A stretch of DNA of 64,000 nucleotides from Paludibacter sp. Its GTDB lineage: Bacteria > Bacteroidota > Bacteroidia > Bacteroidales > Paludibacteraceae. Location: the NCBI GenBank assembly GCA_024710005.1, contig JANJVQ010000016.1, positions 1 through 64,000 of the forward strand, in the 5' to 3' direction. The number at the start of each line of letters is the position of its first letter. Positions within the stretch are counted from its first letter, which is position 1. The notes beneath the pieces were generated by a model. That model saw nothing but the letters and a program-made list of their open reading frames with translations. It was not told where the DNA came from and ran no database searches. Position numbers and translations under genes: made by a program. Shown here one piece after another: positions 31,799 to 56,014 of the stretch.

Positions 31799-33283
31799 TT
31801 ATTTTGATTGATCAGGTTCATCTTCTACGGAAACCCGGATGAACTGATATATTTTTATTTTAATAGCATGGAAAAACTTCACATAAGTTTCGGGGTTAAA
31901 CAAGGTAGCATCTACTGCTGCTTTATAGGTCAGAAAAACCCCGACAGGAAATAACACGGCAGCACTGAGCCACATGCCCTGATAGGCTTCCCAAATGCCT
32001 TCACGCGCCATCTTGTAACCGGTCAGGTCGATGATGTAATACACCACAAACATCAAAACCGAGATAACTACCGGGAAGCCAAAACCACCTTTCCGGATAA
32101 TAGCTCCCAAAGGCGCTCCGATGAAAAAGAAAATCAGACAGGCGAATGACAGGGCAAATTTCCGGTGCCACTCGCTGGCATGGCGGTTCATATACATCTG
32201 AGGTTCACCGAGCAACAACTTGTTATACTGAATATGGTCGAGCATGCTTTTAGAACGTTCAATGGCATTATCGACTGCCATCGTCATTTGACCCTTTTCG
32301 AGTTTAAGAAATGCAGAATCAGGATTGTAGCGTGTTAAATCAACATCCGGTTTCACATCAAGGAAAGCTTGTGAACCTCCATAAGCCATGAAATACCGGT
32401 ATTGCAACATTTCCTGTACCTGTGAGACACTCCTGACCTTAATAATCTGTTTAATGGAATCTATAGATTGAGATAATTCTTTTATATTTTTGCTGACGTG
32501 TGTATCTTCTAACAACGACTCATCATACCGGTTAAAATCAGAATCAAAATCATATAAAATTTCTTTCAGGGAGAAAGTTTCTCTGCGGTACGGTATATTC
32601 CGGGTGCCCGCCAGTTTTTGTTGCCGGAGGTTCTCGAAGCTTTCGCCATTATACAGGGTAAGCAGCAGGTGCTTTTTATCTCCAGTAGGCTGTATTCTAC
32701 CTGAATCAGCCAGCAATACGGCGGCATTGTCGAAACCATTAGAGAAATCATAAATCATCAGGTCCTTCAACAAACCCTTTTCTTTTGCCCGGACATACAG
32801 ATTCACGCCATTGATACCCGAATAAAACTCCCCGACCGGCACATCCAGTTCCGGAGATTTATGCCGGATGGAAAACAGGAGCGTGTACATATTTTTCTGT
32901 GATTTCGGCAGTACGTTATTGGAAAAGAAGAAAGCCGCTACAACAATCAGTCCGACTGTAATCATCAGGGGACGAATAATCCTGAACAAAGAAATACCAG
33001 CCGACTTCATGGCGGTCAGCTCAAAATTCTCACCCAGATTACCAAAAGTCATCAGCGAAGCCAACAACAAAGCCAGCGGTAAAGCCAGCGGCACTAAGGT
33101 CATGATGGCATACATGAAAAACTCTGCCAGCACATCCCATCCGATACCTTTACCCACCAAATCCGCGAAATGCTTCCACAAAAACTGCATCAGCAGGATG
33201 AAGATGACAATCAAAAAGGTCATCACAAAGAGCGTGAAGAAGCGTTTGAGGATGTATGAATCAATCTTTTTGATGACAGACAT
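31799..33283 (-). CDS. LptF/LptG (YjgP/YjgQ) family permease
   Basis: The 494-residue inner-membrane protein is a predicted part of the LptB2FG lipopolysaccharide exporter. Three N-terminal membrane helices (about 15-37, 60-80, 97-120) include [27 protein letters not shown], split here by a cytoplasmic-loop motif typical of the family. A large periplasmic beta-rich domain (about 125-360) is followed by three C-terminal helices ([49 protein letters not shown]). Sequence alone does not say whether it is the F or the G subunit. It is divergent from the sulfate operon; its likely promoter box is at 33304-33311. Confidence 0.9.
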
Positions 33284-33303
33284 GGAGATTTGCTTTGGAC
33301 GTG

Positions 33304-33311
33304 CAAATTTA
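33304..33311 (-). promoter_or_regulatory. Promoter -7 box of the LptF/LptG-family gene
   Basis: Reading the minus strand this is TAAATTTG, a perfect TAnnTTTG match, 21 bp upstream of the ATG. Confidence 0.55.
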
Positions 33312-33349
33312 CTTTATTTTGTTCAATAAACAAGGGGATACCATAAGCA

Positions 33350-33409
33350 GGGTATAAAAATGCCATCGGGATGGTATGGCATATCCAGGTACATTCTCTG
33401 AATTTTGCA
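33350..33409 (+). promoter_or_regulatory. Shared sulfur operator and promoter, copy 1 (DUF2061-cysJI-siroheme operon)
   Basis: A 28-bp block (33350-33377) starts GGGTATAAAAAT and ends TGGTAT. It matches the block at 43169-43196 at 23 of 28 positions. It contains two direct GGTAT repeats 22 bp apart. Exactly 22 bp downstream lies GAATTTTGCA (33400-33409), a one-mismatch TAnnTTTG box that is identical in the second copy. The spacer between is not conserved. This arrangement suggests an activator that binds upstream of a promoter lacking a -33 element. Confidence 0.75.
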
Positions 33410-33437
33410 AAACATAAATTTTACATACCCGTTGCAG

Positions 33438-33665
33438 ATGAAAGAAAAAAATTACCGCAGTCTTGTTAAATCCATATCTTACAGAATTACAGGCACTATC
33501 GCCACATTTCTCATATCCTATATCGTCACCGGTCAGTTGAAATTCGCGGTCTCCATCATGAGCGTTGATTTCATTTCGAAGATTGTCATCTTCTATCTGC
33601 ACGAAAGAATGTGGAACCGGATTAAGTTTGGGAAGGTAAAAGGAGGACCGGAATACGAAATTTAA
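33438..33665 (+). CDS. DUF2061 membrane protein, first gene of the sulfate operon
   Basis: The 75-residue protein is read from the ATG at 33438 (the longer frame opens with TTG inside the promoter box). It is a DUF2061 protein: RSLVKSISYRITGTIATFL, a first membrane helix, a short loop, then FAVSIMSVDFISKIVIFY as the second helix and the conserved HERMWNRIKFG end. It lies 6 bp upstream of cysJ and downstream of the shared operator, so it should be produced with the sulfate-reduction enzymes. A role in sulfate or sulfite handling at the membrane is inference from this position only. Confidence 0.85.
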   Translation: MKEKNYRSLVKSISYRITGTIATFLISYIVTGQLKFAVSIMSVDFISKIVIFYLHERMWNRIKFGKVKGGPEYEI

Positions 33666-33671
33666 AATAAA

Positions 33672-35474
33672 ATGCAAATGAATTTACCTATTGCTCCTTT
33701 TACGGAAGAACAATTAGAAAACATAAAGAACCTGATTAACCCATTGAATGAAATTCAGTTAGCCTGGATCTCGGGTTATCTGGCAGGGCGCAGTCAACTG
33801 CCCTTACCGCAACAAAACGGCAAAGCAGCGGAAGTCCCGGCTGCCGATCAGGTAAATCGTAAACTGACCATTTTATACGGTTCGCGTACCGGCAACGGGA
33901 AAGGATTAGCGAAGATGACAGAAAAGATGGCTGCTGATATCGGCTTACCCGTTGAGGTCAAAAGCATGGAAGATTATCAGCCCAAAGAACTTATTAACGA
34001 GAAATACCTGTTGATAATCGTCTCTACCCATGGCGATGGAGTACCGCCTTTTCAGGCCAAGGCAGTGTACGATCACCTGCACGGGAAACGGGCGCAACGA
34101 CTCGAAGAAACCCAATATGCAGTACTTGCACTCGGCGATTCATCCTATTTTCACTTCTGCAAAACCGGAAAGGACTTCGACAGCAAATTAGAAGCACTCG
34201 GCGCGAAACGCATCCGGGAGATACTGTGCTGCGATGTGGACTACAAACAGTCTGACGAAGTTTGGATACAGGAAACCCTCGCGGATTTCAAACGATTAAC
34301 AGGTAGTGGCAGTGCAGAGACAACCGTAAAACCGGTCGGGGTTGAAACAGAAAAAAGTGTCCTGTTTACGAAACAAAACCCGTATGCTGCACAGGTATTT
34401 GAAAAAATTAACCTGCACGGTCGAGGTTCAGAACGCACCACCCTGCACATTGAATTGCAGGCCGATGTAGCCGGTTTATCCTACGAACCCGGCGATTCAG
34501 CAGGCATCATTCCGGTTAATGCGAAAGGACTGATTACAGAATTATTGCAGGTAACCGCGTTAAATCCGGATCAAACCATTGAAATCAACAGGAATAAACG
34601 GAAGTTGGGTGAAGCGTTGTACCGCGATCTCGAATTATCTAAAATAACGCCGGATGTCATCAAAAGATACCTGGAACAGTTTCCGGACAACAAATTAGAA
34701 GCGGTTTACAAGGATCAGCAAGCTTTACAAACTTATATTTACGGCAGAGACATTGTTGATTTGCTGACTGACTATCCGGTCAAACTGACTGCCACGCAAT
34801 TGGTCAGCATCCTGAAGCCCCTTCAACCACGCTATTACTCTATCGCTTCCAGTCCGAATGCCTATCCGGGCGAAATTCACCTGACCGTTGCTTTGGTGGA
34901 TTACGAACAAGGAGGACGCAACAAACGGGGCACGTGTACCGGGTTTCTGTCGGACGTACTGGAGGAGGATGAACATGTACCAGTCTTCATTGAATCGAAT
35001 CCTAACTTCCGGCTACCTGCTTACCCGGAAACTCCCATCATCATGATTGGAGCGGGAACCGGCGTGGCACCTTACCGGGCATTTGTGCAAGAACGTGCAT
35101 TGAATCCCGATTCAGGTAAAAGCTGGCTTTTCTTCGGGAACCGCCATTTCGAAACGGAGTTTTTATACCAGACTGAATGGCAGCAACACCTGAAATCCGG
35201 CGCGCTTACCCGCATGGACGTGGCCTTTTCGAGGGATGGAGAAAAACCGGTTTACGTGCAACACCGGTTGCTGGAACAGGCCGGAGATATTTATCAGTGG
35301 ATAGAAGAAGGTGCACACCTCTATATCTGTGGTGATATGAAGAAAATGGCAGTGGATGTACAAAATGCCTTGTCAACCATCCTGCGTCAGGAAGGCGGAT
35401 ACAATGCCGATGAAGCACAGGAATACTTGAACAGCATGCAGCAGGAAAAAAGATTGCAATTGGATGTATATTGA
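33672..35474 (+). CDS. cysJ: Sulfite reductase [NADPH] flavoprotein, alpha component
   Basis: The 600-residue protein passes electrons from NADPH through FAD and FMN to CysI. An N-terminal extension is followed by a flavodoxin domain (about 63-205: ILYGSRTGNGKGLAKM, VSTHGDGVPPFQAK, ALGDSSYFHFC). The FAD-binding domain (about 235-440) shows RYYSIASSP and GTCTGFLSD. The NADPH-binding domain (about 450-600) shows MIGAGTGVAPYRAF, SWLFFGNRHFETEF, YICGD and the usual DVY C-terminus. Length matches E. coli CysJ (599). The small repeat at 35473-35634 begins at its stop codon. It is cytoplasmic and paired with cysI downstream. Confidence 0.96.
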   Translation: MQMNLPIAPFTEEQLENIKNLINPLNEIQLAWISGYLAGRSQLPLPQQNGKAAEVPAADQVNRKLTILYGSRTGNGKGLAKMTEKMAADIGLPVEVKSMEDYQPKELINEKYLLIIVSTHGDGVPPFQAKAVYDHLHGKRAQRLEETQYAVLALGDSSYFHFCKTGKDFDSKLEALGAKRIREILCCDVDYKQSDEVWIQETLADFKRLTGSGSAETTVKPVGVETEKSVLFTKQNPYAAQVFEKINLHGRGSERTTLHIELQADVAGLSYEPGDSAGIIPVNAKGLITELLQVTALNPDQTIEINRNKRKLGEALYRDLELSKITPDVIKRYLEQFPDNKLEAVYKDQQALQTYIYGRDIVDLLTDYPVKLTATQLVSILKPLQPRYYSIASSPNAYPGEIHLTVALVDYEQGGRNKRGTCTGFLSDVLEEDEHVPVFIESNPNFRLPAYPETPIIMIGAGTGVAPYRAFVQERALNPDSGKSWLFFGNRHFETEFLYQTEWQQHLKSGALTRMDVAFSRDGEKPVYVQHRLLEQAGDIYQWIEEGAHLYICGDMKKMAVDVQNALSTILRQEGGYNADEAQEYLNSMQQEKRLQLDVY

Positions 35475-35634
35475 CGGTGTCTCATAAGCGCCCAACTGCT
35501 TCGTTGCTTTCGATATGAGTGCTCGGTCACGTACTTTAGTACGCTCCCTCCCCCTCAATCTCAGCGCCTTGCATTTGAACACTTCTGAAACACCTTGGCT
35601 GTTTCTCGCGTGAAAATACTTTTGAGACAGCCTC
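35473..35634 (-). mobile_element. MITE-like element with IS1182-type ends
   Basis: This 162-bp non-coding element lies between cysJ and cysI. Its right edge, read on the minus strand, starts GAGGCTGTCTCAAAA, identical to the first 15 bases of the IS at 1-1781. Its left edge GACGGTGTCTCA matches the same end at 10 of 12 positions, giving imperfect terminal inverted repeats. Inside is the small dyad CGTACT/AGTACG. With no ORF of its own it looks like a non-autonomous derivative mobilised by an IS1182-type transposase. It starts at the cysJ stop codon and so separates cysJ from cysI. Confidence 0.6.
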
Positions 35635-35670
35635 ATTTTTAAAGTACTAACATGAATAAAATTTTAAAAA

Positions 35671-37371
35671 ATGAACACACAAGATAAAAACCAGGTTTCT
35701 GCTTTCGAAGTACTGAAAGAAAACAGCAATTACCTGCGGGGAACCATCAAAGAAAGTTTAGAAAATCCAATTACAGGTTCACTTGCACCTGATGATCAGT
35801 TATTGATTAAATTTCACGGCACCTATCAGCAGCAAAACCGTGATTTGGACGAAGAGCGATTGAAACAGAAGTTAGAACCGCTGTACAGCTACCTCATCCG
35901 CATCCGGGTGCCGGGAGGTGTTACGACACCGCAACAGTGGCTGGCCATTGATGCATTGGCAGACAAATATGCCGACAAAGAACTCAAACTCACCACCAGA
36001 CAAGCGTTTCAGTTTCATGCGGTATTAAAACGAAATCTGAAGAAAACAATCAGGGAAATCAACGACACGCTGCTGGACACACTGGCAGCCTGCGGGGATG
36101 TGAACCGCAACGTGATGTCATCGGCCAACCCATTTGAATCGCCGGTACATGCAGAAGTCACCGATGATGCCCGCAAGATATCCGCGCATTTGAGTCCGCA
36201 AACCGGCGCTTACCACGAAATCTGGCTCGACAAAGAATTAGTGGCCGGCGGAGAAGCCGAGTCGGAACCTATCTACGGGAAAGTATATATGCCCCGTAAG
36301 TTCAAAATCGCCATAGCTATTCCACCCCGCAATGATACCGATGTGTTATCCAACGACCTGGGTTTCATTGCCATTGTAGAAAAGGATATACTGAAGGGCT
36401 ACAACCTGACAGTGGGCGGTGGCATGGCTTACACCTTCGGAAACACGAATACATTCCCGCGGGTAGCTGATGTGGTAGGCTATTTCCCGAAAGAAAAAAT
36501 CGTGGAAGTTGCCGAAGCCGTGGTGGTATTTCAGCGTGACCATGGCAACCGTTCCGACCGGAAACAAGCACGTTTGAAATATACGATAGAAAAATACGGC
36601 CTGGATTATTTCAAAGCAGAACTGAAAAGGACGCATGGCATTGAACTTGAAGCATCCAAACCTTATCAGTTTGAATCACAGGGAGATGTTTATGGCTGGA
36701 CTCAGGGAGCAGACGGATACTGGCATTACACCCTGTTTGTGGAAGGGGGTAAACTAACGGATTTCAACGGGATAAGCACCAAAACTGCCGTAAAAGAAAT
36801 CGCCCGCATCCATGACGGCACCTTCATCCTTACCGGAAATCAGAATTTGGTCATCGCACAGGTATCGACCACAAATAAAAAGAAAATTGAAGCCATCCTG
36901 AAAAAACACCAGGTGAAAGAGGGCAAAAGCATTTCACAATTGCGACAACATTCGATTGCCTGCGCAGCCCTGCCCTATTGCGGTTTATCTTTTGCCGAGG
37001 CCGAAAGATACCTGCCCACGGTGGTCGACAAGATTGACGTTATATTGCAACAACTGGGCTTGTTCAACGAACCCATTTCCATTCGCATGACAGGCTGTCC
37101 GAATGGTTGCGGACGCCCCTTCTTAGGCGAAATAGCCCTGGTAGGGCGCGCTCCCGGTCGCTACAACCTATACTTAGGAGCAGGGTTCAAAGGCGACCGG
37201 CTGAACAAGCTTTACAAAGAAATGCTGAATGAAGATGAGATACTGGCAACACTGGAACCCTTACTGACCGATTATGCCCACAACAGAAACGAACAGGAAC
37301 GTTTTGGTGATTTCGTCATCCGGAAAGGATATATCGAAGCAGTACCCGCAGGCAATCAGTTTCACTCATAA
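35671..37371 (+). CDS. cysI: Sulfite reductase hemoprotein, beta component
   Basis: The 566-residue enzyme reduces sulfite to sulfide at a coupled siroheme-[4Fe-4S] centre. Two ferredoxin-like/sirohaem domains repeat. The N-terminal half shows LTTRQAFQFHAVLKRNLK and CGDVNRNVMSSANP (substrate-binding Arg and Asn). The C-terminal cluster motifs are CAALPYCGLSFAEAERYLP and MTGCPNGCGRPFLGEIALVG, supplying all four cysteines. Length is that of E. coli CysI (570). The gene sits between its reductase partner and the genes that make its siroheme. Confidence 0.97.
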   Translation: MNTQDKNQVSAFEVLKENSNYLRGTIKESLENPITGSLAPDDQLLIKFHGTYQQQNRDLDEERLKQKLEPLYSYLIRIRVPGGVTTPQQWLAIDALADKYADKELKLTTRQAFQFHAVLKRNLKKTIREINDTLLDTLAACGDVNRNVMSSANPFESPVHAEVTDDARKISAHLSPQTGAYHEIWLDKELVAGGEAESEPIYGKVYMPRKFKIAIAIPPRNDTDVLSNDLGFIAIVEKDILKGYNLTVGGGMAYTFGNTNTFPRVADVVGYFPKEKIVEVAEAVVVFQRDHGNRSDRKQARLKYTIEKYGLDYFKAELKRTHGIELEASKPYQFESQGDVYGWTQGADGYWHYTLFVEGGKLTDFNGISTKTAVKEIARIHDGTFILTGNQNLVIAQVSTTNKKKIEAILKKHQVKEGKSISQLRQHSIACAALPYCGLSFAEAERYLPTVVDKIDVILQQLGLFNEPISIRMTGCPNGCGRPFLGEIALVGRAPGRYNLYLGAGFKGDRLNKLYKEMLNEDEILATLEPLLTDYAHNRNEQERFGDFVIRKGYIEAVPAGNQFHS

Positions 37372-37413
37372 CGAAATAAGAATTTAAGTAAAACATCGAT
37401 AAGTATAAAAAAT

Positions 37414-37444
37414 GACCGGTGACTGGAGACTGGTGACCGGAGAC
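37414..37444 (+). repeat. GACTGGAGACTGGTGACC-type word repeat
   Basis: Degenerate tandem words between cysI and the Met8-like gene, of the same family as 44183-44255. Confidence 0.6.
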
Positions 37445-37454
37445 TTTTAATAAA

Positions 37455-37937
37455 ATGAAAAGAGAAGACATGAATTTCCTACCCATTTCCATCAACGTCA
37501 CCAACAAGAAGATTCTGTTGATTGGCGGGGGCAAGGTAGCAACACATAAAGCATCAATCATTGCACGTTTTATCACGGATAATGTGACGGTTATATCACC
37601 TGATTTCACTTCGGAAATCAGACAGTTACCCTTTACATTCATCCAAAAAAACTATGACAAAAACGACCTGAAAGATTTCTTCTTAGTTTACGTATGCACG
37701 GGCGATCACGAACTGAACCGCCAAATCAAAACTGATGCAGAAGAGCTGGGTATACTCACCAGCGTATGCGATGCTCCCCTGCTCTGCGATTTCGTATCGC
37801 CGGCTATTTTTAAACAGGAACACCTGACCATCGCGGTGTCGTCGAATGCACAAAACGTGTATCAGTCGATTGCCGTGCGCGACAGGATTGCAAAATTAAC
37901 GGATGATGGTTTATTACAGCTCGATCAGTCAGTTTAA
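37455..37937 (+). CDS. Met8/CysG-N-like precorrin-2 dehydrogenase
   Basis: The 160-residue protein corresponds to the N-terminal half of CysG or to short Met8-like proteins. It oxidises precorrin-2 to sirohydrochlorin and probably inserts iron to give siroheme. The Rossmann motif is KILLIGGGKVATHKASII (near 19-36). The NAD-domain end VCDAPLLCDFVSPAIF carries the conserved Asp (in the D of VCDA or CDF) thought to act in both reactions. It ends soon after SIAVRDRI, without the C-terminal dimer or helical domain of larger homologues. The gene overlaps hemA by 35 bp, indicating tight co-translation. Confidence 0.9.
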   Translation: MKREDMNFLPISINVTNKKILLIGGGKVATHKASIIARFITDNVTVISPDFTSEIRQLPFTFIQKNYDKNDLKDFFLVYVCTGDHELNRQIKTDAEELGILTSVCDAPLLCDFVSPAIFKQEHLTIAVSSNAQNVYQSIAVRDRIAKLTDDGLLQLDQSV

Positions 37938-38808
37938 CACCGGCATAACAGCCCGGGAAGATTACCTGAAAATACTTCGCATTCCGGAGGAAGAGCCACA
38001 TGTGTTGCTGAAAACCTGCAACCGCATTGAGCTTTACCGGGGTGCGGGTGATATTCCGGTGGAAATCGTCAGGCATTTATTCCGGGTAGTAGCCGGCTTA
38101 GAATCCGGTCTGACCGGCGAATCGGCCATACAGGGACAAGTCAAGCTGGCGTATGAGACTGCCAAAACAAACTACAAGCTTTCACCGGCCTTGCACCGCC
38201 TGTTTCAGCAGGCATTGCGGGTAGGTAAATTAGTACGCACCCAATCGGGCATTGGCAAAGGAGCTGTTTCGCACGGACAAGCCACCGTGGAAATGATTGC
38301 TTCCAGCGGCATTGAATTAGATAAAGCCAGGATAACACTCATCGGGGTGAACAAACTCACCGAGGACACCATCCGGTTTTTGCAGCAAAGAGGTGCAGAG
38401 ACTTTGTTTGTTGCCAACCGCAGCTACCACAAAGCGTTGCCTTACGCCGAAAAATACAATTGTAAGATTTTTCACTTTGAGAATCTGACGGAAGTCCTGA
38501 TGCGTACTGATGTCCTGATTTCCGCCACTTCGGCACCATACACGGTTGTGCGCACCGATAAATTTCCGAAAAACAAACCGATGCACATTTTCGATCTGGC
38601 TTTCCCCCGGGATGTAGATGCTGCAATCGCGGATTATGCCGGTATCAGTCTATATAATATTGAAGACATTGAAGCGCGCATCCGAAAGAACCTGCACAAA
38701 CGAAGCAAAGAAATTGCCATCGCGGAAAACATCATCGCGCAGGAAGTAACATCATTTTTTAAAAGAAAACACCATGTCAGCAACATTGAAAGTCATCAGC
38801 AGAAATAG
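37903..38808 (+). CDS. hemA: Glutamyl-tRNA reductase, short form
   Basis: The enzyme would reduce glutamyl-tRNA to glutamate-1-semialdehyde, the first step of tetrapyrrole synthesis. The nucleophilic Cys is in LLKTCNRIELY (near residue 40); the conserved GQVKLAYETA and VSHGQATVEMI follow. The NADPH domain ends in VANRSYHKALPYAEKY and ISATSAPYTVV. Two oddities stand out. The protein is only 301 residues and lacks the C-terminal dimerisation domain of the roughly 420-residue form, and the Rossmann glycine motif reads LIGVNKLTEDT rather than GxGxxG. It overlaps its neighbours by 35 bp on both sides. Assignment is firm; full activity is less certain. Confidence 0.88.
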   Translation: MMVYYSSISQFNTGITAREDYLKILRIPEEEPHVLLKTCNRIELYRGAGDIPVEIVRHLFRVVAGLESGLTGESAIQGQVKLAYETAKTNYKLSPALHRLFQQALRVGKLVRTQSGIGKGAVSHGQATVEMIASSGIELDKARITLIGVNKLTEDTIRFLQQRGAETLFVANRSYHKALPYAEKYNCKIFHFENLTEVLMRTDVLISATSAPYTVVRTDKFPKNKPMHIFDLAFPRDVDAAIADYAGISLYNIEDIEARIRKNLHKRSKEIAIAENIIAQEVTSFFKRKHHVSNIESHQQK

Positions 38809-40810
38809 CAAACTTGCTATCTTGCAAACACAGGAATTCTTCGGTGAATTTCCGGAGCTGACCTATACCCTCATCACCCTGCCTTCATTTGGAGACAAAC
38901 GAAAAGACATTTCGCTGCTTGAAAATCCACCGGCAGATATTTTCACACGGGAATTAGATGCGCAAATCCTTTCGGGCGAAGCTGACATCGCCATTCATTC
39001 GGCCAAAGACCTGCCCTATCCCCTGCCGGAAGGGTTGGCATTAATTGCCCTCACACAAGCTTTTGATGAAACAGACTCTTTGGTAAGCAAACAAAATAAA
39101 AAGCTGAATGAGTTATCACCCGGCTCGAAAGTCGGCACCAGTTCGCCGGTTCGCAAACAAGAACTACTGGCATTGCGTCCCGACCTCGAAGTGGTAAGCA
39201 TCCGGGGCACCATCGAAGAACGCATCGCGCAGGTAGAGAATGGCGCCGTAGATGCCCTGATTGTTGCCAGTTGCGCCCTGAAAAGACTGAACCTGTTTCA
39301 CAGGGCAGCGGAGGTATTGCCGTTCCGCACCCATCCCTTGCAGGGTAGTCTGGCCGTAGTCGCCAAAACCGGTCGCACCGACCTGCAACAATTGTTTGCA
39401 AATGCAGACATCCGCAGAGAATACGGCAAAGTCACCTTAGTGGGTTTTGGTCCGGGCAACCCTGACCTGCTCACCATCGCCGGAGAAAAAGCGCTGCAAC
39501 AAGCCGATATCATTTATTACGACGACCTGACCGACCACGAGTTTCTGAAACAATACAAAGCAGCACAAATCTATGTGGGCAAACGAAAAGACAAGCACAG
39601 TCATGCTCAGGAAGACATTCAGCGGCTGTTACTCGATGCAGCCAGAGCCGGCAAATCGGTGGTGCGACTCAAGGGAGGCGACCCAATGGTCTTTGCCCAT
39701 GGTGGTGAAGAAGTGATTTACCTGCAAAGCAATCATGTACAAACGGAAGTCATACCGGGCATCTCGACCGGTTTAGCTGTTGCATCTTTAACGAGCATAC
39801 CCCTTACCCATCGCGGCATTGCATCTTCTGTAGCTTTTATCAGCGGACATGCAGCCGATGTGCAACTGCCCGATACCGATACCGTTGTGATTTACATGGG
39901 TGGAGCAAACATCCGTCCCATTGCTGAAAATGCCATCAGTAGGGGCAGAAAACCGGGGACAGAAGTCATGCTGGTTTACAACGTTTCCAGAAGTGACCAG
40001 CAAATATTCTTTTCTACTCTTGCTGAACTCAGTCGGGAAGAACGCACATACCCCACTCCACTCATCATCGTGGTGGGAGATGTGGTTAGCCTGAGAAATT
40101 ACCTGACACCCCAAAAACGGTCTAAGATGCTGGTTACCGGCACCCATCGCGAACAGTTTGACAAACTGGGCGAAGTCATCCATCAGCCACTGATTGAAAT
40201 TAAACGGACATCTGAAGAAGCATTAAAAGATAAAATAACAAAGTTGAAAAACTACGACTGGCTCTTTTTCACCAGTCGTTACAGCGTGCAATTCTTCTTC
40301 GAAACCCTGCATGGCATGGGCAAAGACAGTCGGTTCTTAGGAAACATCCGCGTTGCATCAGTGGGACGAGTAACTTCCGAAGCATTGAAAACAGCAGGCA
40401 TTATGCCCGACATACAACCCGATGACGAATCATCCGAAGGTTTACTCAGACTGATACAGGAAAAACAAATCGAACCCGGAAAGGTTTTTATTCCCCGTTC
40501 CAACCTGGGTTTAAAAGTTTTACCCGAAGGATTGCAACAACTGGGCTGGCAAGTCGAAACATTCGCCATCTACGAAAACAAGATGCCCGACAACCTGCAA
40601 CCCATCGATTTAAATGAGATAGATACAATCGTTTTCTCCTCACCTTCCTGCGTGACCAATTTTCTTCAATTATACGGAGGATTTCCCGAAGGAAAAGAAT
40701 ATGTTTTCAGGGGAAGGGAAACCGAGAAAAGATTCAAAGACATTAACATCAACCCAGACCTGTCAGGTTATAAAAACCTGACAGGTCTAATGGATAGAAC
40801 AACTACATGA
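38774..40810 (+). CDS. HemC-CobA-HemD triple fusion, HemC part truncated
   Basis: One 678-residue protein carries three consecutive siroheme steps. HemC-like residues 1-212 keep SRNSKLAILQTQ, the catalytic Asp of IHSAKDLP (D79) and GTSSPVRKQELLALRPDL with RGTIEERI. This covers only domains 1 and 2: the third domain, with the Cys that binds the dipyrromethane cofactor, is missing, and the only Cys in this part is C167. CobA (about 218-455; uroporphyrinogen-III methyltransferase) shows LVGFGPGNPDLLTI and RLKGGDPMVFAHGGEEV. HemD (about 460-650) shows LFFTSRYSVQFFF, ASVGRVTSEAL and VFSSPSCVTNF. The last 20 codons include a palindromic repeat (40756-40788). The protein overlaps hemA by 35 bp and hemB by 4 bp. 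Confidence 0.92.
   Translation: MSATLKVISRNSKLAILQTQEFFGEFPELTYTLITLPSFGDKRKDISLLENPPADIFTRELDAQILSGEADIAIHSAKDLPYPLPEGLALIALTQAFDETDSLVSKQNKKLNELSPGSKVGTSSPVRKQELLALRPDLEVVSIRGTIEERIAQVENGAVDALIVASCALKRLNLFHRAAEVLPFRTHPLQGSLAVVAKTGRTDLQQLFANADIRREYGKVTLVGFGPGNPDLLTIAGEKALQQADIIYYDDLTDHEFLKQYKAAQIYVGKRKDKHSHAQEDIQRLLLDAARAGKSVVRLKGGDPMVFAHGGEEVIYLQSNHVQTEVIPGISTGLAVASLTSIPLTHRGIASSVAFISGHAADVQLPDTDTVVIYMGGANIRPIAENAISRGRKPGTEVMLVYNVSRSDQQIFFSTLAELSREERTYPTPLIIVVGDVVSLRNYLTPQKRSKMLVTGTHREQFDKLGEVIHQPLIEIKRTSEEALKDKITKLKNYDWLFFTSRYSVQFFFETLHGMGKDSRFLGNIRVASVGRVTSEALKTAGIMPDIQPDDESSEGLLRLIQEKQIEPGKVFIPRSNLGLKVLPEGLQQLGWQVETFAIYENKMPDNLQPIDLNEIDTIVFSSPSCVTNFLQLYGGFPEGKEYVFRGRETEKRFKDININPDLSGYKNLTGLMDRTTT
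40756..40788 (+). repeat. Palindromic repeat inside the hemD end of the fusion gene
   Basis: AGACCTGTCAGGTT and AACCTGACAGGTCT form perfect 14-bp arms around five bases. It encodes DLSGYKNLTGL at the C-terminus. The word resembles dispersed intergenic repeats seen in other Bacteroidota. Confidence 0.75.
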
Positions 40811-41772
40811 AACGATTCAGACCATACCGTACTGATGCGGCAACCCGCGAGCAATACTCCGATGTACAAGTACAGGCACCCGATTTTATCTATCCGCTTT
40901 TCATCGTGGAAGGGAAAAATCAGCAACAAATCATCAATACCTTGCCGGGGGTATTTCGGTTTTCAATCGACAGGCTTTCGGATGAACTTGCTGAGATAAC
41001 GGCGTTAGGCATCAGCAAGGTTTTATTATTCGGGGTAATTGACGATGCCCTGAAGAACCCCGAAGGAACAGCCGGCTATGATCCGGATTCCCTGGTTTGT
41101 CGCACTGTACGCTATATCAAACAACACTTCCCGCGAATCACGGTTTTCACGGATGTTTGTCTGTGCGAATACACGTCGCACGGTCACTGCGGATTATTGC
41201 ACGGCGACCAAATCGAGAACGACAGCACCTTGCCCGTGCTTGCCCGCATCGCCTTGTCGCACGCGCAGGCCGGGGCCGACTTCGTAGCGCCATCAGCCAT
41301 GATGGACGGACAGGTACAGGCCATCCGGGAAGCATTGACATCGGCCGGATTGAAAACAAAGATTTTGTCCTATTCGGCCAAATACGCATCTTCGTTTTAC
41401 GGTCCTTTCAGGGATGCGGCAGGTTCGGCGCCTTCGTTCGGTGACCGCAAAAGCTACCAGATGGATTACCGCACCCGCGATCAGGGATTAGCTGAAATTG
41501 CCGCAGACATAGAAGAAGGAGCAGATTGGGTGATGGTGAAGCCCGCGCAGACTTACCTTGATATCATCCAGCGGGCAGCGGTTGCATTTCCGAAAACGCC
41601 TTTAGCCGCCTATCAGGTTTCCGGAGAATATGCCATGCTGAAAAATGCGGCAGAAAGCCATTTATTAAACGAAGAGCAGGCATTCAAAGAAAGCTTAACT
41701 GCCATCAAACGTGCCGGCGCTCAATACATCATCAGTTATTATGCAAAAGAGTTTATCCGAAAAGGCTTATAA
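40807..41772 (+). CDS. hemB: Delta-aminolevulinic acid dehydratase (porphobilinogen synthase)
   Basis: The 321-residue enzyme condenses two 5-aminolevulinate molecules to porphobilinogen. The zinc-site cysteines are in DVCLCEYTSHGHCG (near 117-130). The active-site lysines lie in LKTKILSYSAKYASSFYGPFRDA (split across residues near 182-205) and DWVMVKPAQTYLDII (near 239-253). Its ATG overlaps the stop of the fusion gene by 4 bp, and its 3' end overlaps hemL by 32 bp. Length is typical for the zinc-dependent bacterial enzyme. Confidence 0.97.
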   Translation: MKRFRPYRTDAATREQYSDVQVQAPDFIYPLFIVEGKNQQQIINTLPGVFRFSIDRLSDELAEITALGISKVLLFGVIDDALKNPEGTAGYDPDSLVCRTVRYIKQHFPRITVFTDVCLCEYTSHGHCGLLHGDQIENDSTLPVLARIALSHAQAGADFVAPSAMMDGQVQAIREALTSAGLKTKILSYSAKYASSFYGPFRDAAGSAPSFGDRKSYQMDYRTRDQGLAEIAADIEEGADWVMVKPAQTYLDIIQRAAVAFPKTPLAAYQVSGEYAMLKNAAESHLLNEEQAFKESLTAIKRAGAQYIISYYAKEFIRKGL

Positions 41773-43060
41773 AGAAGCGGTTGAATTCATCCCCGGCGGG
41801 GTGAACAGTCCGGTACGCGCCCTGAAAAGCGTGGGTGCAACCCCCATCTTTGTAAAAAATGCAAAGGGAGCTACCTTCACCGACATCGACGGCAACGACT
41901 ACATCGACTTTTGTCTCTCGTGGGGCGTTTTCATCCACGGACATGCACATCCTGCCGTTAATCAGGCAGCAGTCGATGCCATACAACACGGTACCAGTTA
42001 CGGCATCCCTTCCTTACAAGAAACCACGCTGGCTAAGTTGGTAGTCGGCGCTGTACCCTCCATCGAGAAAGTCCGCTTTGTCAACTCAGGCACCGAGGCG
42101 GTTATGAGCGCTATTCGTTTAGCCAGGGCATACACCGGCAGGGACCTTATCGTGAAATTCGACGGGTGCTATCATGGTCATGCCGACCACCTGTTGGTAG
42201 CTGCCGGTTCGGGAGTAGCCGGACTAAGCGCTTCTTCGTCCAAAGGAGTACCGGCAGATTTCACGCGACATACCATCAGTCTGCCCTTTAACGACCTGGC
42301 CGGTGTAAAAGATTTATTCACTACCCATGGCGATAAGATCGCGGCCGTCATCACCGAACCCGTACCTGCCAACATGGGCGTGGTGTTGCCCCATGAAGAC
42401 TTCCTGCCGGGATTGCGCGAAATCACCCAACAACACGGTGCTTTACTGATATTCGACGAGGTTATAACCGGCTTCCGGCTTTCCAAGGGTGGTGCTCAGG
42501 AACTCTATGGCATTCAACCCGACCTCACCACCCTTGGCAAGATCGTTGGAGGAGGCTTTCCCGCAGCGGCATTTGGTGGCAGGGCAGACATCATGGACAT
42601 GCTGGCGCCGCTGGGCGAGGTCTATCAGGCCGGGACGCTCTCGGGCAACCCCGTGGCCATGTCGGCAGGCATCCGGACCCTGCAACTGCTCGAATCCGCT
42701 GATTTTTATCCGGATTTACAAGCCAAAACCGATTGGTTTATAAACGAACTTAAACAAATCATCAAAGGAAAAGACATCCAGCTGAATCACGTTGGTTCTA
42801 TGTTCACCCTCTTTTTCTCACGGGATAAAATCAACAATTTCGAAGATGCAGCCAAGGCCGATGCTACCCGGTTCGGACAATTCTACCGGAATATGCTCGA
42901 ACAGCACATCTATTTATCTCCCTCACCCTTCGAAGCCAATTTTATTTCTGTCGCCCACACGAAAGAACAGCTGGAGAGGACGCTGGAAGCGTTTGTGAGA
43001 GCGGAAAACGGAAAGCGGAAAACGGAAAACGCATCTAATTCTGAAATACTGTTCGCATAA
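41741..43060 (+). CDS. hemL: Glutamate-1-semialdehyde 2,1-aminomutase
   Basis: The start used is the ATG of MQKSLSEKAY; a longer frame opens with GTG. The 439-residue PLP enzyme converts glutamate-1-semialdehyde to 5-aminolevulinate. Visible motifs are EFIPGGVNSPVRALKSVG, FVNSGTEAVMSAIRLARAYTGR, FDGCYHGHADHLL, LIFDEVITGFRL and the PLP-binding Lys in TLGKIVGGGFPAAAFGG. The last 20 residues (from RAENGKRKTEN) are translated from a GGAAAACGG-type intergenic repeat, so the C-terminus is a recent, probably neutral, extension. It is the last gene of the first operon. Confidence 0.96.
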   Translation: MQKSLSEKAYKEAVEFIPGGVNSPVRALKSVGATPIFVKNAKGATFTDIDGNDYIDFCLSWGVFIHGHAHPAVNQAAVDAIQHGTSYGIPSLQETTLAKLVVGAVPSIEKVRFVNSGTEAVMSAIRLARAYTGRDLIVKFDGCYHGHADHLLVAAGSGVAGLSASSSKGVPADFTRHTISLPFNDLAGVKDLFTTHGDKIAAVITEPVPANMGVVLPHEDFLPGLREITQQHGALLIFDEVITGFRLSKGGAQELYGIQPDLTTLGKIVGGGFPAAAFGGRADIMDMLAPLGEVYQAGTLSGNPVAMSAGIRTLQLLESADFYPDLQAKTDWFINELKQIIKGKDIQLNHVGSMFTLFFSRDKINNFEDAAKADATRFGQFYRNMLEQHIYLSPSPFEANFISVAHTKEQLERTLEAFVRAENGKRKTENASNSEILFA

Positions 43061-43149
43061 TCCTACTTTTTGTTTACTTTTTTGTAAACTTATTTCAGGA
43101 CTAGACACTCCGCTTTCCGCTTTCCGTTTTCCGCTCTCCGCTTTCCGCT
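43001..43149. repeat. Inverted pair of GGAAAACGG / CCGCTTTCCG repeats
   Basis: The left arm (43001-43032) lies inside the hemL coding end. The right arm (43108-43149) lies just ahead of the second sulfur operator. The pair has the same design as 6566-6690 and 9094-9267. Confidence 0.7.
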
Positions 43150-43168
43150 AAAAAACCTACCGCAAACA

Positions 43169-43228
43169 GGGTATAAAAATCCCATTCCGGTGGTATTTGG
43201 TAAGGCCGAATATTGAGCGAATTTTGCA
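43169..43228 (+). promoter_or_regulatory. Shared sulfur operator and promoter, copy 2 (cysDNH operon)
   Basis: Block 43169-43196 starts GGGTATAAAAAT and ends TGGTAT, with GGTAT repeats 22 bp apart. After 22 non-conserved bases comes GAATTTTGCA (43219-43228). The match to 33350-33409 is 23/28 in the operator and 10/10 in the -7 region with identical spacing. The cysD ATG follows 43 bp later. Confidence 0.75.
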
Positions 43229-43271
43229 TCAGCATAACGAAACAACGTAACGATATTAAATAAAAAACAAC

Positions 43272-44177
43272 ATGCCCCATCAGCATTTAACACACCTGAA
43301 AGAATTAGAATCCGAATCGATATACATCCTCCGGGAAGTGGCGGCGCAGTTCGAACGTCCCGCGCTGCTGTTTTCCGGAGGAAAAGATTCCATCGTGATG
43401 GCTTACTTAGCCTACAAAGCCTTTTATCCGGCTGCCATCCCCTTCCCTTTCGTGCACATCGACACGGGACATAATTTCGAGGAAACCCTGACTTACCGCG
43501 ATGACTTAATAAAGAAACTCGGCGCTCGTTTGATTGTCGGCTCTGTGGAAGAATCCATCCGTCAGGGTCGTGTGGTGGAAGAAAAAGGATTTTCTGCCAG
43601 CCGCAATAAACTGCAAACTGTCACCCTGCTCGACACCCTGGCCGAATATAAATTCGATGCTGCAATGGGTGGAGCGCGGCGCGACGAGGAAAAAGCCCGC
43701 GCCAAAGAGCGGTTCTTCTCTCACCGCGATGAGTTCGGACAGTGGGATCCGAAGAACCAGCGACCAGAGCTCTGGAATATCTTCAACGGAAAAAAACAAC
43801 CGGGCGAGCATTTCCGGATATTTCCTATCAGCAACTGGACGGAAATGGACATCTGGCAATACATCCTGCAGGAAAACATTCCGCTGCCTTCGTTGTACTA
43901 CACCCACGAGCGGGAGGTTTTCGAACGCGACGGTATCATCTATGCCGCTTTACCGGCCATGCCCCGCCGTCCGAAAGAAACCCCTGTGGTGGAAAGGGTT
44001 CGCTGCCGTACCATAGGCGACATTACCTGTACGGGCCTCACCCGCTCCAATGCGAATTCATTAGAAGACATCATCGCCGAAATTGCGGGTTCACGCATCA
44101 CCGAGAGAGGTGGCCGCGCCGACGATAAACGTTCCGAAGCCGCCATGGAAGACCGCAAAAAAGCGGGGTATTTTTAA
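43272..44177 (+). CDS. cysD: Sulfate adenylyltransferase subunit 2
   Basis: The 301-residue protein is the ATP-sulfurylase catalytic subunit that makes adenosine phosphosulfate (APS) from sulfate and ATP, driven by GTP hydrolysis in CysN. The PP-loop is LLFSGGKDSIVMAYLA (near residues 33-48). Other family motifs are HIDTGHNFEETLTYRD, GGARRDEEKARAKERFFSHRDEFGQWDPK (split) and the C-terminal RCRTIGDITCTG and RGGRADD. Length matches E. coli CysD (302). It is the first gene after the second sulfur operator. Confidence 0.97.
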   Translation: MPHQHLTHLKELESESIYILREVAAQFERPALLFSGGKDSIVMAYLAYKAFYPAAIPFPFVHIDTGHNFEETLTYRDDLIKKLGARLIVGSVEESIRQGRVVEEKGFSASRNKLQTVTLLDTLAEYKFDAAMGGARRDEEKARAKERFFSHRDEFGQWDPKNQRPELWNIFNGKKQPGEHFRIFPISNWTEMDIWQYILQENIPLPSLYYTHEREVFERDGIIYAALPAMPRRPKETPVVERVRCRTIGDITCTGLTRSNANSLEDIIAEIAGSRITERGGRADDKRSEAAMEDRKKAGYF

Positions 44178-44269: not shown

Positions 44270-45571
<1,302 letters not shown>

Positions 45572-45631: not shown

Positions 45632-46339
45632 ATGAACCCCGAAAAAAACATTGCACAATTTAACCAACAATTCGCGGGCAAGTCACCGGAATTTGTACTT
45701 ACCTATTTCCTGCATGCCTACAGTGGCCGGATAGCCTTGTCGTCGAGCCTTAGCATCGAAGACCAGATGCTCACCGACCTGATTGCCAACATCGCACCGG
45801 CTACGCGGATATTCACGCTGGATACCGGCCGCCTGTTTCCGGAGACTTACAGCCTGATTGAAAGAACCAGGATGAAATACCCCATCACGCTCGAAGTATT
45901 CTTTCCGGATGCTGCCGAAGTGGAAAACATGGTTCGGGAATATGGCATCAACCTGTTCTATGAAAGTGCTGAACTTCGCAAAAAATGTTGTCATGTCAGG
46001 AAAATACAGCCACTGAAGCGGGCCTTTCAGGGACTGGAAGTCTGGATATGCGGGTTACGCCGCGAACAATCCGTCACCCGGCACGACATGCAACTCATTG
46101 AATGGGATGCATCAAACGGACTCATCAAACTGAATCCGCTGATTGATTATACCGAAGCACAGGTTTGGGAGTACATCAAAACCAATCAGGTTCCTTATAA
46201 TAAGCTGCACGACCGTGGTTTTCCGAGCATTGGCTGTCAGCCCTGTACCCGCGCTATTGAACCCGGGGAAGATGTCCGTGCCGGCAGGTGGTGGTGGGAA
46301 AACCCGGAGCAAAAAGAATGCGGACTACATAAAAGGTAA
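45632..46339 (+). CDS. cysH: Adenylyl-sulfate (APS) reductase, [4Fe-4S] type
   Basis: The 235-residue enzyme reduces APS to sulfite with thioredoxin. The modified PP-loop region is IALSSSLSIEDQMLTDLI. The cluster cysteines are both present: CC in KKCCHVRKIQPL and CxxC in SIGCQPCTRAI. The catalytic Cys is in the terminal KECGLHKR. The cluster cysteines and the lack of cysC indicate use of APS rather than PAPS. Its last 258 bp are duplicated at 56015-56272. It is the last gene of the second sulfate operon. Confidence 0.95.
   Translation: MNPEKNIAQFNQQFAGKSPEFVLTYFLHAYSGRIALSSSLSIEDQMLTDLIANIAPATRIFTLDTGRLFPETYSLIERTRMKYPITLEVFFPDAAEVENMVREYGINLFYESAELRKKCCHVRKIQPLKRAFQGLEVWICGLRREQSVTRHDMQLIEWDASNGLIKLNPLIDYTEAQVWEYIKTNQVPYNKLHDRGFPSIGCQPCTRAIEPGEDVRAGRWWWENPEQKECGLHKR
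46064..46321. repeat. 258-bp direct repeat, left copy (inside cysH)
   Basis: It matches 56015-56272 with three differences that I can see, at a constant offset of 9951 bp. The left copy is part of the intact cysH gene. Confidence 0.93.
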
Positions 46340-53299: not shown

Positions 53300-53956
53300 C
53301 TATAACTGATTTGTAAGTGCGAATTTGACCAGACCAATCGTGTTTCTACATCCGGTTTTATAAAGAATATTCGCTCTGTGTTGATCAACGGTCTTCTTGC
53401 TGATAAACAACTTTTGAGCAATTTCCTCACTGGTACATTCCTGTACAATCAACTTTAAAATCTCTTGTTCCCGGTTCGTTAGTATTTTCAGATTTTCTTT
53501 GTTTATTTTTTCTTTTTCGATTTGTCCCAATACAATGGGAATGAGTTCACTTGAAAACCATTTACCATTTTGAGACAATCGAAAAAAAGCATCAAAAAGC
53601 TCATCACGACTGGCATTTTTAAGCATGAAACCATCCGCTCCGGCTGCAATACATTCTTTGACAATGGCTGCATTATCATACATACTCAAAATCATTACCT
53701 TTATTTGAGGAAACATTTTTTTTACACCTCGACACAGTTCAATGCCGTTCATACCCGGCATATTAATATCGGAAAGTAAAATTTGGTATTGTTCCGGATT
53801 ATTTGTAATCAGGTTAAAAGCCGTTTGACCATTGTTACATTCAGCAACAACAATATACCCTTTATTATTGCCAATCATGGTTTTTAACCCATCGATTATC
53901 ATCTGATGATCATCAGCAATCAAAATAGTAACCGGACTTTGTATTAAGTTGTTCAT
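53300..53956 (-). CDS. NarL/LuxR-type response regulator
   Basis: The 218-residue protein has a receiver domain (about 10-130) with the acidic pair in IADDHQMIIDGL, the phospho-acceptor Asp in ILLSDINMPGMNG, Ser/Thr in ILSMYDN and the Lys in GFMLKNAS. A LuxR-type helix-turn-helix follows (about 155-218): LTNREQEILKLIVQECTSEE and ISKKTVDQHRANIL. It shares a 4-bp ATG/TGA overlap with the histidine kinase, so the two form a cognate pair. The secreted-protein genes just downstream are the likely targets, by position only. Confidence 0.93.
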   Translation of the reverse strand: MNNLIQSPVTILIADDHQMIIDGLKTMIGNNKGYIVVAECNNGQTAFNLITNNPEQYQILLSDINMPGMNGIELCRGVKKMFPQIKVMILSMYDNAAIVKECIAAGADGFMLKNASRDELFDAFFRLSQNGKWFSSELIPIVLGQIEKEKINKENLKILTNREQEILKLIVQECTSEEIAQKLFISKKTVDQHRANILYKTGCRNTIGLVKFALTNQL

Positions 53957-55917
53957 ATATTAACCGGAATAATTAGTTTAATGGTAGTTCCTTCATTACT
54001 ATATGATTGCATATTAAGTTCTCCACTCAGGAATCTGACACGGGCACTGATATTTTTCCAACCCAGTCCTTCATTAGCAACCAGATTACGGGTATCGAAA
54101 CCAACCCCATTGTCTTTTATCGAGACAAATAGTTGGTTTTTTATCAGGTTCATGTCAATACTGATACGGGTAGCCCGGGCATGTTTAATCAGGTTGTTAA
54201 GTATTTCCTGTACAATACGGTACACAGTGATTTGTTGCTCAATGGGCAATGCTCCCTCCTTCAGTTGAATGGCGTTCAGATTCAGTTCTACCCCAACATT
54301 TCCGGCGAATCGTATGCGTTCAGCGGTATCTTCAATCGCTTTCAGCAACCCGAGATTCAGTTCTGCAGGAATCAGATTATGTGAGATTGTGCGGACTTCT
54401 GTAATTGTTTCGTCAATCAAGACAGATACCCTAATCAGTTCATTTCGATCATTTTCTGCAGATTCACTGATTAATTTACTAATCATCATTTTTTGCAACG
54501 CAAGTTTTTGTCCTATGCTGTCATGCAGGTCACGGGCAATGCGGATACGTTCATTTTGTTCACTCTTGAATACGGCATTTTGCAAAGTCTGTTCACTTTT
54601 CAAACGAGTATTAAACTGTTTCCAACGGTACCAAGCAATACAGCCAATAATGACAAACAAAGCAAACAAAGCTATAGAATAAAGTAAGGTATTCTTTTTG
54701 TTTTGCGCCAATTCCATCCGGGCTAACTGCCATTCGGTTTTTTCATGTTGCTGTTTTAATTCAAGTATCTCCTTTTCCTTTAATGCTGTATTATATTTTG
54801 TCTCCATTTCAGCCAGCTTGCCGGCATGGTCATCAATAAATCTTTGTTCTATTTGTTTTTCATACAATTGTTGATAATATTGTCCCTTTTGAGTATCTCC
54901 TGATAAATAATAGCCCAGTGACGCATTCTTATATACCGGACTTGCAAAAAAGTACAAATCAGGTTCCTTGTCTAATATTTTCAGGGCTTTATGAGCATAT
55001 TTCACAGCCTGTGCTGGTTGTTTCAGATGAATGTAGTTACCAGCAATCATGGCATACACATTCATCAAAAATTTATTACGCAATGGAATGGATTTAGACT
55101 CTGCCAGTATGACCAGGTTTAGTTTCAGACTTTCATTGTGCCTGTTGAGTTCAGCGTACAGATTGGCCAGATTACTCATACTCTCGAAATACTGTGTTTG
55201 ATTATCGTATTTTTTACTTACAGCCATCGCATCCTGATAAGCTTTTTCTGATTCAGGATATTTCTTCAGGTTGCGATAACATATCCCAATATTGTTATAT
55301 GAATGAGCAACAACTCCTTTCAAATTTGGATTCGCCTGGCGAATGACCAGTGCTTTTTTGTGGTAACTGAGTGCTTTTTCGTAGAAACCCATTTCCTGGT
55401 AAATGAGGCCTATGTTGTTTTGGATGATACTCTCGTCCATTTTTTTGTTTTCAGGAAGTGTTTGATTTAATTCCAGACATTGATTGAAAAATGCCAGCGC
55501 TTCAGTTTTCAACCCCTGGTTCCAATGATACATACCCAGGTTATTGAGCAGTTTAATCTCCATGTCGGGAAAATGATACGTTTTGCTGAGTTCTAATGCT
55601 TGCTCAAATTGTATTCGGGCTGAATCTGAATTGCCTGTTACATCATAAAACACCCCTTTTATACTGAGGGCATTCACAATCCCATATTTGTTATTTATTT
55701 TTACCGATAGGGCATAACCATCCTCAATGTATTTACGTGCCTGCTTTGTATCTTTAAAGACATACTGAAAACCAATCTTCAATTGTGTAAGCGCTTTTAT
55801 GGAATCATTAGTGGTGGTTTCTACAATGGTTATCATGCTATCCAGCGGGGTTTGCTGAGCAACAATTTGATTTAAAAACAACCAATAAAGCAGATGAAAG
55901 ATTAGCTTTTTATTCAT
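53953..55917 (-). CDS. TPR-containing sensor histidine kinase (HisKA_3 type)
   Basis: The start used is the ATG of MNKKLIF; the longer frame opens with TTG. The protein has 654 residues with a signal peptide (about 1-20), tetratricopeptide repeats over about 35-360 (YVFKDTKQARKYIEDGYALS, NIGLIYQEMGFYEKALSYHKK, NIGICYRNLKKYPESEKAYQ), one membrane helix near 405-425 (LLYSIALFALFVIIGCIAWYR), and a cytoplasmic kinase core. The phospho-acceptor His is in RIARDLHDSIGQKLALQK. The ATPase end shows IVQEILNNLIKHARA and SIKDNGVGFD. The TPRs would lie in the periplasm, where they could sense protein partners. Confidence 0.92.
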   Translation of the reverse strand: MNKKLIFHLLYWLFLNQIVAQQTPLDSMITIVETTTNDSIKALTQLKIGFQYVFKDTKQARKYIEDGYALSVKINNKYGIVNALSIKGVFYDVTGNSDSARIQFEQALELSKTYHFPDMEIKLLNNLGMYHWNQGLKTEALAFFNQCLELNQTLPENKKMDESIIQNNIGLIYQEMGFYEKALSYHKKALVIRQANPNLKGVVAHSYNNIGICYRNLKKYPESEKAYQDAMAVSKKYDNQTQYFESMSNLANLYAELNRHNESLKLNLVILAESKSIPLRNKFLMNVYAMIAGNYIHLKQPAQAVKYAHKALKILDKEPDLYFFASPVYKNASLGYYLSGDTQKGQYYQQLYEKQIEQRFIDDHAGKLAEMETKYNTALKEKEILELKQQHEKTEWQLARMELAQNKKNTLLYSIALFALFVIIGCIAWYRWKQFNTRLKSEQTLQNAVFKSEQNERIRIARDLHDSIGQKLALQKMMISKLISESAENDRNELIRVSVLIDETITEVRTISHNLIPAELNLGLLKAIEDTAERIRFAGNVGVELNLNAIQLKEGALPIEQQITVYRIVQEILNNLIKHARATRISIDMNLIKNQLFVSIKDNGVGFDTRNLVANEGLGWKNISARVRFLSGELNMQSYSNEGTTIKLIIPVNI

Positions 55918-56014
55918 TGTGTTGGGTTTTGATAACAAACACTTAATTTGGTTAACATTTCAAATGGTAAAATTGTTCTTAAACCCGCATCTTATCCACC
56001 ATCGACAACAAACT

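Follow-up and report, generated by a model that had tools for sequence, protein, structure and literature searches.

Gene content and promoter regions of the two operons

The window analysed here, a stretch of 64,000 nucleotides (nt) from the start of contig JANJVQ010000016.1 of a Paludibacter sp. (GCA_024710005.1), contains an operon for sulfite reductase and siroheme synthesis (operon 1) and an operon for sulfate activation (operon 2). Both are preceded by the same operator, which appears to be the switch of a cysteine/sulfur regulon of the order Bacteroidales, as judged by the position of its members; the candidate regulator, encoded outside the window, is termed REG. The features of the two promoter regions are the following:

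33338..33355, plus strand: distal palindrome of operator 1 (ATACC-N8-GGTAT), predicted centre at about -65.5
33360..33377, plus strand: proximal palindrome of operator 1 (ATGCC-N8-GGTAT), predicted centre at about -43.5
33400..33407, plus strand: -7 box GAATTTTG of the siroheme/sulfite reductase operon, 22 nt past the operator
33412, plus strand: predicted transcription start of operon 1, placed from the position of the -7 box
43157..43174, plus strand: distal palindrome of operator 2 (CTACC-N8-GGTAT)
43179..43196, plus strand: proximal palindrome of operator 2 (ATCCC-N8-GGTAT)
43196..43199, plus strand: -33-like TTTG, overlapping the end of operator 2, 19 nt (N19) before the -7 box
43219..43226, plus strand: -7 box GAATTTTG of the cysD operon
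43231, plus strand: predicted transcription start of operon 2

The genes of the two operons are the following:

33438..33665, plus strand: small membrane protein of the DUF2061 type, encoded first in operon 1 (Pfam PF09834, 71.3 bits)
33672..35474, plus strand: cysJ, sulfite reductase flavoprotein (NCBIfam TIGR01931, above cut-off)
35671..37371, plus strand: cysI, sulfite reductase hemoprotein (TIGR02041, above cut-off)
37455..37937, plus strand: siroheme dehydrogenase/ferrochelatase resembling the N-terminal part of cysG, named by eye, with no NCBIfam match at 1e-30
37903..38808, plus strand: hemA (TIGR01035, above cut-off)
38774..40810, plus strand: hemC-cobA fusion (TIGR00212 and TIGR01469, above cut-off), its C-terminal part presumably HemD-like
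40807..41772, plus strand: hemB (NF006762, above cut-off)
41711..43060, plus strand: hemL (TIGR00713, above cut-off; translated from 41744)
43272..44177, plus strand: cysD (TIGR02039, above cut-off)
44270..45571, plus strand: cysN (TIGR02034, above cut-off)
45632..46339, plus strand: cysH, adenylylsulfate/phosphoadenylylsulfate (APS/PAPS) reductase (TIGR02055 and TIGR00434, above cut-off)

An NCBIfam model was matched above its cut-off by 9/10 genes of the two operons, and the DUF2061 gene was found through Pfam.

Structure of the operator

Each operator consists of two tandem palindromes of 18 base pairs (bp), ATACC-N8-GGTAT; their centres are separated by 22 bp, and 22 nt lie between the operator and the -7 box. 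Operator 1 is formed by ATACCATAAGCAGGGTAT (33338-33355) and ATGCCATCGGGATGGTAT (33360-33377), and operator 2 by CTACCGCAAACAGGGTAT (43157-43174) and ATCCCATTCCGGTGGTAT (43179-43196). A first-pass annotation of this DNA had reported a shared block ahead of the operons, and the recount from the sequence gives the same 23 identical bases of 28 (33350-33377 and 43169-43196); the fixed gap of 22 nt is also as it described (33378-33399 and 43197-43218), each time followed by an identical GAATTTTGCA (33400-33409 and 43219-43228). The GGTAT repeats 22 bp apart that it noticed are present, but they are the right arms of the tandem palindromes and not direct repeats, so that the true operator starts 12 bp upstream of the start it had given. 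The direct-repeat reading, either as 22-bp GGTAT repeats or as 11-bp repeats of the OmpR type, was dropped, as ATACC-N8-GGTAT pairs turned up at other loci.

In Flavobacterium psychrophilum the -7 box is placed at -12 to -5 (PMC9723704). With the box set at these positions, the predicted centres are -43.5 for the proximal and -65.5 for the distal palindrome. The supposed lack of a -33 element holds for operon 1, where TTTG is absent, but not for operon 2, where it is found. Repeats of the GGAAAGCGGAAAACGGAAA type were also seen by eye at 43005-43035, on one side of the hemL stop, and their complement at 43108-43149, just 5' of operator 2.

Further sites in the Paludibacter genome

The 3.24-Mb genome has 11 strand hits of the 39-bp tandem pattern at up to three mismatches, and the reversed control has 1. 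At up to two mismatches the pattern was found at four places, which are the two window sites and two new ones, and three more places were added at three mismatches. The pattern including the -7 box gave 4 matches in the genome and 0 in the control. Of the new sites, both on the minus strand, one (G000:C24:6353-6421) precedes cysK-metY and the other (G000:C31:46464-46532) a DUF4395 gene; at both of them TATTTTTG lies exactly 22 nt past the operator, the gap to the -7 box thus being 22 nt at all four sites of the genome. Single palindromes were matched 27 times in this genome and 12 times in the reversed control, and therefore the weak single-palindrome matches are not interpretable here. One site of this kind, with the 22-nt spacing, stands before a gene that resembles by eye a FeoA-FeoB fusion (L385, G000:C28:49823-49870, minus strand), and it could be a weak fifth member or a chance match.

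Distribution of the operator in Bacteroidales

The survey covered 393 genomes of the order, and the full pattern (tandem palindromes, 22 nt and -7 box, with at most three mismatches) was found at 40 places in 18 of them, with 0 matches of the reversed control in the genome rows. The matches of genome G149 belong to a satellite-like tandem repeat, and this genome was removed from the operator counts and retained in the cysK test described below. Its contigs C26, C27, C72, C73, C79, C99 and C136 carry satellite-like units of the TACCACTCCAGTGGTATGATC type, with a period of about 22 bp, which mimic the operator; near or after the unit in locus L116 there is no listed open reading frame of at least 100 amino acids. 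The 17 remaining operator-positive genomes include G170, G287 and G327, whose single matches, without REG, are probably due to chance.

A weight matrix was built from 35 of the 40 sites, leaving out those of G149, G170, G287 and G327 and one reverse-strand reading in G487; part of these sites come from sister genomes (G336/G416 and G142/G255), hence not all are independent. The matrix scores its own training sites from 31 to 58; in reversed sequence (4.69 million positions) only one score above 8 was obtained, of 18.8. The TACC-N8-GGTA core (16 bp) keeps its arms in the 35 aligned sites, although the search pattern selected them; the arms were also recovered upstream of cysK when the distance to the -7 box was left free. 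Outside the letters of the search pattern, conservation was observed for the T after GGTAT (33/35), for an A at position 7 of the distal heptamer (26/35) and for a T as first base of the -7 box (22/35), a position left free by the pattern. TTTG occupies the -33 position in 3/35 sites at N19, operon 2 of the window among them, and in 2/35 at N18.

Identification of the candidate regulator

The 16-bp TACC-N8-GGTA shares its 7-2-7 geometry with NarL sites, which pointed to a GerE-type protein. The Paludibacter genome presents 10 GerE matches, four of which extend over all or almost all of the model. One of these, REG, is an orphan NarL/LuxR-type protein of 217 amino acids (G000:C7:162867-163517), whose relatives are encoded inside sulfur clusters in loci L009 (49% identity) and L006 (36%). 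The expectation of the first-pass annotation that a single regulator is encoded outside the window is thus supported, the candidate being located on another contig.

The Pfam scan of REG found GerE (PF00196, 46.8 bits, cut-off 23.5) and Response_reg (PF00072, 21.8 bits, below the cut-off of 30.2), and no LysR or Rrf2 domain. In 50 sequences the phosphorylation pocket keeps Asp54 (50/50), Lys105 (49/50) and Asp8 (47/50), with Asn at the second acidic position in 35/50. The AlphaFold2 model, built with 34 sequences, has a mean predicted local distance difference test (pLDDT) of 93.8 and a predicted template modelling score (pTM) of 0.68, and it shows the receiver-like alternation of five strands with helices. 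Foldseek aligned it in full length to VraR and LiaR, which came first, and to RcsB and NarL lower in the ranking, with TM-scores of about 0.5; these low values are read as a different orientation of the domains. NarL was also among the sequence matches. The REG gene adjoins a gene read as mnmA near the end of its contig, which ends 328 bp upstream, and no kinase gene was seen in the visible flank. Beside the REG gene of L006, a protein of 773 amino acids is encoded (L006:696-3014), which is NirA/sulfite-reductase-like with a YedF/TusA-like C-terminal part, all below the model cut-offs.

Association of REG with the operator and with sulfur genes

A profile of three proteins (REG and its L009 and L006 relatives) found REG in 45/393 genomes at E 1e-35 or better. 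REG is present in 14/17 operator-positive genomes and in 30/375 of the others (Fisher 3e-12; G149 dropped), and in 9/9 genomes with at least two full-pattern matches.

The association was also examined at the best cysK of 80 genomes, 45 REG-positive and 35 REG-negative, in which the gene was found in 44 and 25, respectively. When up to one mismatch was allowed, a palindrome was located exactly 22 nt ahead of a -7 box ([TGC]AnnTTTG) in 24/44 REG-positive and in 0/25 REG-negative genomes. Seven further REG-positive genomes have only the distal palindrome, 44 or 45 nt before the -7 box, giving a sum of 31/44. By their genome labels, the 24 positive genomes span 16 families; families f1, f29 and f42 include both REG-positive and REG-negative genomes, each obeying the rule, and in f19 and f38 the REG-positive genome, too, is without the cysK site. 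Among the other open reading frames of the REG loci, the same arrangement was found before 2/351, one of them cysE-like. The tandem site without the -7 box, at up to two mismatches, occurred in 12/44 REG-positive (G149 dropped) and in 0/35 REG-negative genomes. A good share of the cysK promoters carry a single palindrome, which indicates that the tandem arrangement is a variant and not a requirement.

Of the 47 REG loci (45 genomes, two of them with a second copy), 27 have a gene of the sulfur reference set at no more than 3 kb from REG: 23 of these have a clear cysteine or methionine enzyme, cysK in 18 cases, and the other four a distant metY-like gene or an ATP-binding cassette (ABC) transporter. 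In G336 and G416, the operator is located in the divergent region between REG and an ABC transporter.

Content of the regulon

In loci L001, L003, L004, L006, L007 and L143-L252 there are 45 distinct sites scoring above 27; site 1 of the window is outside this list, and the downstream genes were named by us, with examples tested against models. Enzyme genes follow 17/45 sites: cysK in seven cases (one with a 525-nt leader), metY-type genes in four, cysD in two, and cysJ, metK, a cysE-like gene and hemC in one each. Another 7/45 were counted by context, namely those before genes for substrate-binding proteins (3), an ABC ATPase (1), an SDF-family symporter (1) and DUF2061 proteins (2). The tested examples of cysK, metY and metK matched NCBIfam models above cut-off; the cysE-like protein and the substrate-binding protein matched the serine O-acetyltransferase and PstS-family models below cut-off. 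In the Paludibacter loci L003 and L004, the operator precedes cysD and cysJ, and by eye a DUF2061-like gene is also 3' of the site in L143 and L148.

The first-pass annotation had proposed looking for further sites before other sulfur genes, and such sites exist, before cysK-metY in this genome and before cysteine and methionine genes in others. Its joint control of sulfate reduction and siroheme synthesis covers both operons but is too narrow in scope, since the regulon is cysteine/sulfur-wide.

In two genera, a gene under the operator encodes a small secreted protein of the binding type (L217 and L143:6378-7307). The L143 copy has a weak PF12849 match, with PstS models below cut-off, and by eye the L217 copy looks similar. 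Judging from the context, the protein perhaps binds a sulfur compound.

Proposed mechanism

We consider it probable that the tandem site is the operator of a cysteine/sulfur regulon of Bacteroidales, and that REG binds it and activates transcription when reduced sulfur is short. A REG dimer would occupy each TACC-N8-GGTA palindrome, whose two heptamers are separated by 2 bp, and a pair of dimers would stand side by side on one face of the DNA, at a distance of 22 bp. From its position near -43.5, the proximal dimer would contact the edge of a weak or absent -33 element and recruit RNA polymerase to the fixed -7 box. At shortage of reduced sulfur, the genes for sulfite reductase/siroheme and sulfate activation, cysK-metY and a DUF4395 gene would be turned on. 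By the 7-2-7 half-site geometry and the -43.5/-65.5 positions, which resemble those of NarL at ogt, REG is most likely an activator of the class-II type. The fixed distance and the scarcity of TTTG at -33, together with the NarL precedent, favour activation through contact with RNA polymerase. More tentatively, REG may be the master regulator that has been missing for the cysteine synthesis of Bacteroidales, with an atypical receiver that would sense a sulfur metabolite, or the oxygen status through the hemerythrin protein, in place of responding to a histidine kinase.

Several points weigh against this proposal. The REG cut-off is our own judgement, the lower tail of the matches being gradual, and the genomes are related and not independent, so that the p values are too small. 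Among the REG-positive genomes, 13/44 lack a palindrome upstream of the best cysK at all three distances (22, 44 and 45 nt; one of them is G149, whose second cysK copy has the palindrome; second copies overall, 2/6), and the strict tandem site is present in only those 12/44. The cysK genes of REG-negative genomes are mostly more distant from the query (44-66% identity), which makes them an imperfectly matched control, and at three mismatches the tandem site is matched in 6/35 of these genomes. The adjacency of REG to sulfur genes is a raw count without a matched control, and 20/47 REG loci, that of Paludibacter included, have no reference sulfur gene within 3 kb. Sites before genes not tied to sulfur, or before no gene, amount to 21/45 (six TonB-receptor-like, six of the serine-hydrolase family and nine with another or no gene). 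Finally, the NarL heptamer is TACYYMT, and the heptamer TACC(A/C)(T/C)A fits it only partly: TACC is conserved, positions 5 and 6 agree in part, and position 7 is A, not T, in 26/35 distal sites.

Alternative explanations

The same operator and regulon could be under repression: with cysteine in ample supply, REG or another GerE-type protein would block RNA polymerase at -52 to -35. In favour of this, the proximal palindrome borders on the -33 region or overlaps it, and TTTG is found there at the few sites counted above; 30/35 sites, however, have no TTTG at N18 or N19. Repressors usually tolerate variable positions, whereas 24/44 cysK promoters keep a gap of exactly 22 nt to the -7 box. NarL, moreover, activates from comparable positions at ogt (PMC7419079). 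Repression is thus regarded as unlikely.

Similarly improbable is that another protein binds the operator, be it the hemerythrin-GerE protein (G000:C25:137131-138078), the NarL-type regulator of the window (53300-53956) or a CymR-like Rrf2 protein. The site of G039 adjoins a hemerythrin-like gene and a GerE gene (L084/L160), and the recognition region of the hemerythrin protein resembles by eye that of REG; but its relatives are found in 250/393 genomes, 14/17 of the operator-positive ones included (p of about 0.13), too widespread to explain the distribution of the operator, and this candidate was rejected. The regulator of the window is an unlikely controller of the sulfur operons, as it pairs with its own histidine kinase (53953-55938). 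Three Rrf2 proteins are encoded in the Paludibacter genome; apart from these three genes themselves, a relative appears among the fetched loci only in L061, and the Rrf2/CymR-like candidate was also rejected.

Some observations were made around these candidates. In L160 (6136-6204, G039), a strong operator stands before a gene for a tetratricopeptide repeat (TPR) protein and after the hemerythrin-like and GerE genes, and in G503 and G375 a relative of the hemerythrin protein is close to cysK and REG. The proximity of hemerythrin genes in these three genomes hints that oxygen sensing and cysteine synthesis may be linked. In the window, the NarL-type response regulator and the TPR-containing histidine kinase are encoded on the minus strand (53300-55938). 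Behind this pair, a 263-nt segment (56015-56277) is 98% identical to the 3' part of cysH (46064-46326), 9.95 kb downstream of it, and represents a partial duplicate of cysH.

That the two operons share an RNA element or riboswitch and not a DNA operator is extremely improbable: the palindromes can form hairpins, but they are upstream of the -7 box and so would not be transcribed from that promoter, and an Rfam scan of 33200-43400 at gathering level gave 0 matches.

Comparison with known systems

NarL binds 7-2-7 repeats, and ogt of Escherichia coli requires two sites, at -44.5 and -77.5, an engineered single site at -67.5 also being functional (PMC7419079). REG and its operator share with this system, as there described, the GerE-type helix-turn-helix, the 7-2-7 inverted repeat of 16 bp and two sites per promoter, the near one abutting the -35 element. 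Unlike NarL, the putative targets of REG are cysteine/sulfur genes and not a nitrate response, the dimers would be 22 and not 33 bp apart, the second half of the heptamer differs, and a partner kinase is absent from the visible flank.

LysR and Rrf2 proteins are known to run cysteine regulons. CysB, the LysR-family protein of enterobacteria, is one activator for the sulfate activation, sulfite reductase and cysK genes, a set that REG would also control; the two differ in the LysR domain, absent from REG, and, to our knowledge, in the operator. CymR, the Rrf2-family protein of Firmicutes, represses the genes of cysteine synthesis and uptake from a palindromic operator of similar outline. REG is like CymR in the control of cysteine genes and in this outline, but it belongs to another protein family, CymR is a repressor, and an Rrf2 gene together with cysteine genes was found only in L061 among the fetched loci.

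No description of the operator, the regulon or the regulator was found in the literature searched, to which most subscription papers did not belong. Proteins and sites of this kind are known, and their pairing with a cysteine regulon was described nowhere in that literature; nor did it yield an account of how Bacteroidota control cysteine synthesis and sulfate assimilation. If the proposal is right, a NarL-type protein joins the LysR and Rrf2 proteins as controllers of cysteine regulons, and the control of cysteine synthesis and sulfate assimilation in Bacteroidota gains an operator with exact geometry, a candidate regulator and a list of targets. The regulon also marks DUF4395, DUF2061, the serine hydrolase, the TonB receptors and the SDF-family symporter as candidate sulfur genes. 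In Flavobacterium johnsoniae data a -33 element was not identifiable (PMC7366714), and the 22-nt rule points to a way in which an activator may stand in for this element at promoters of Bacteroidota.

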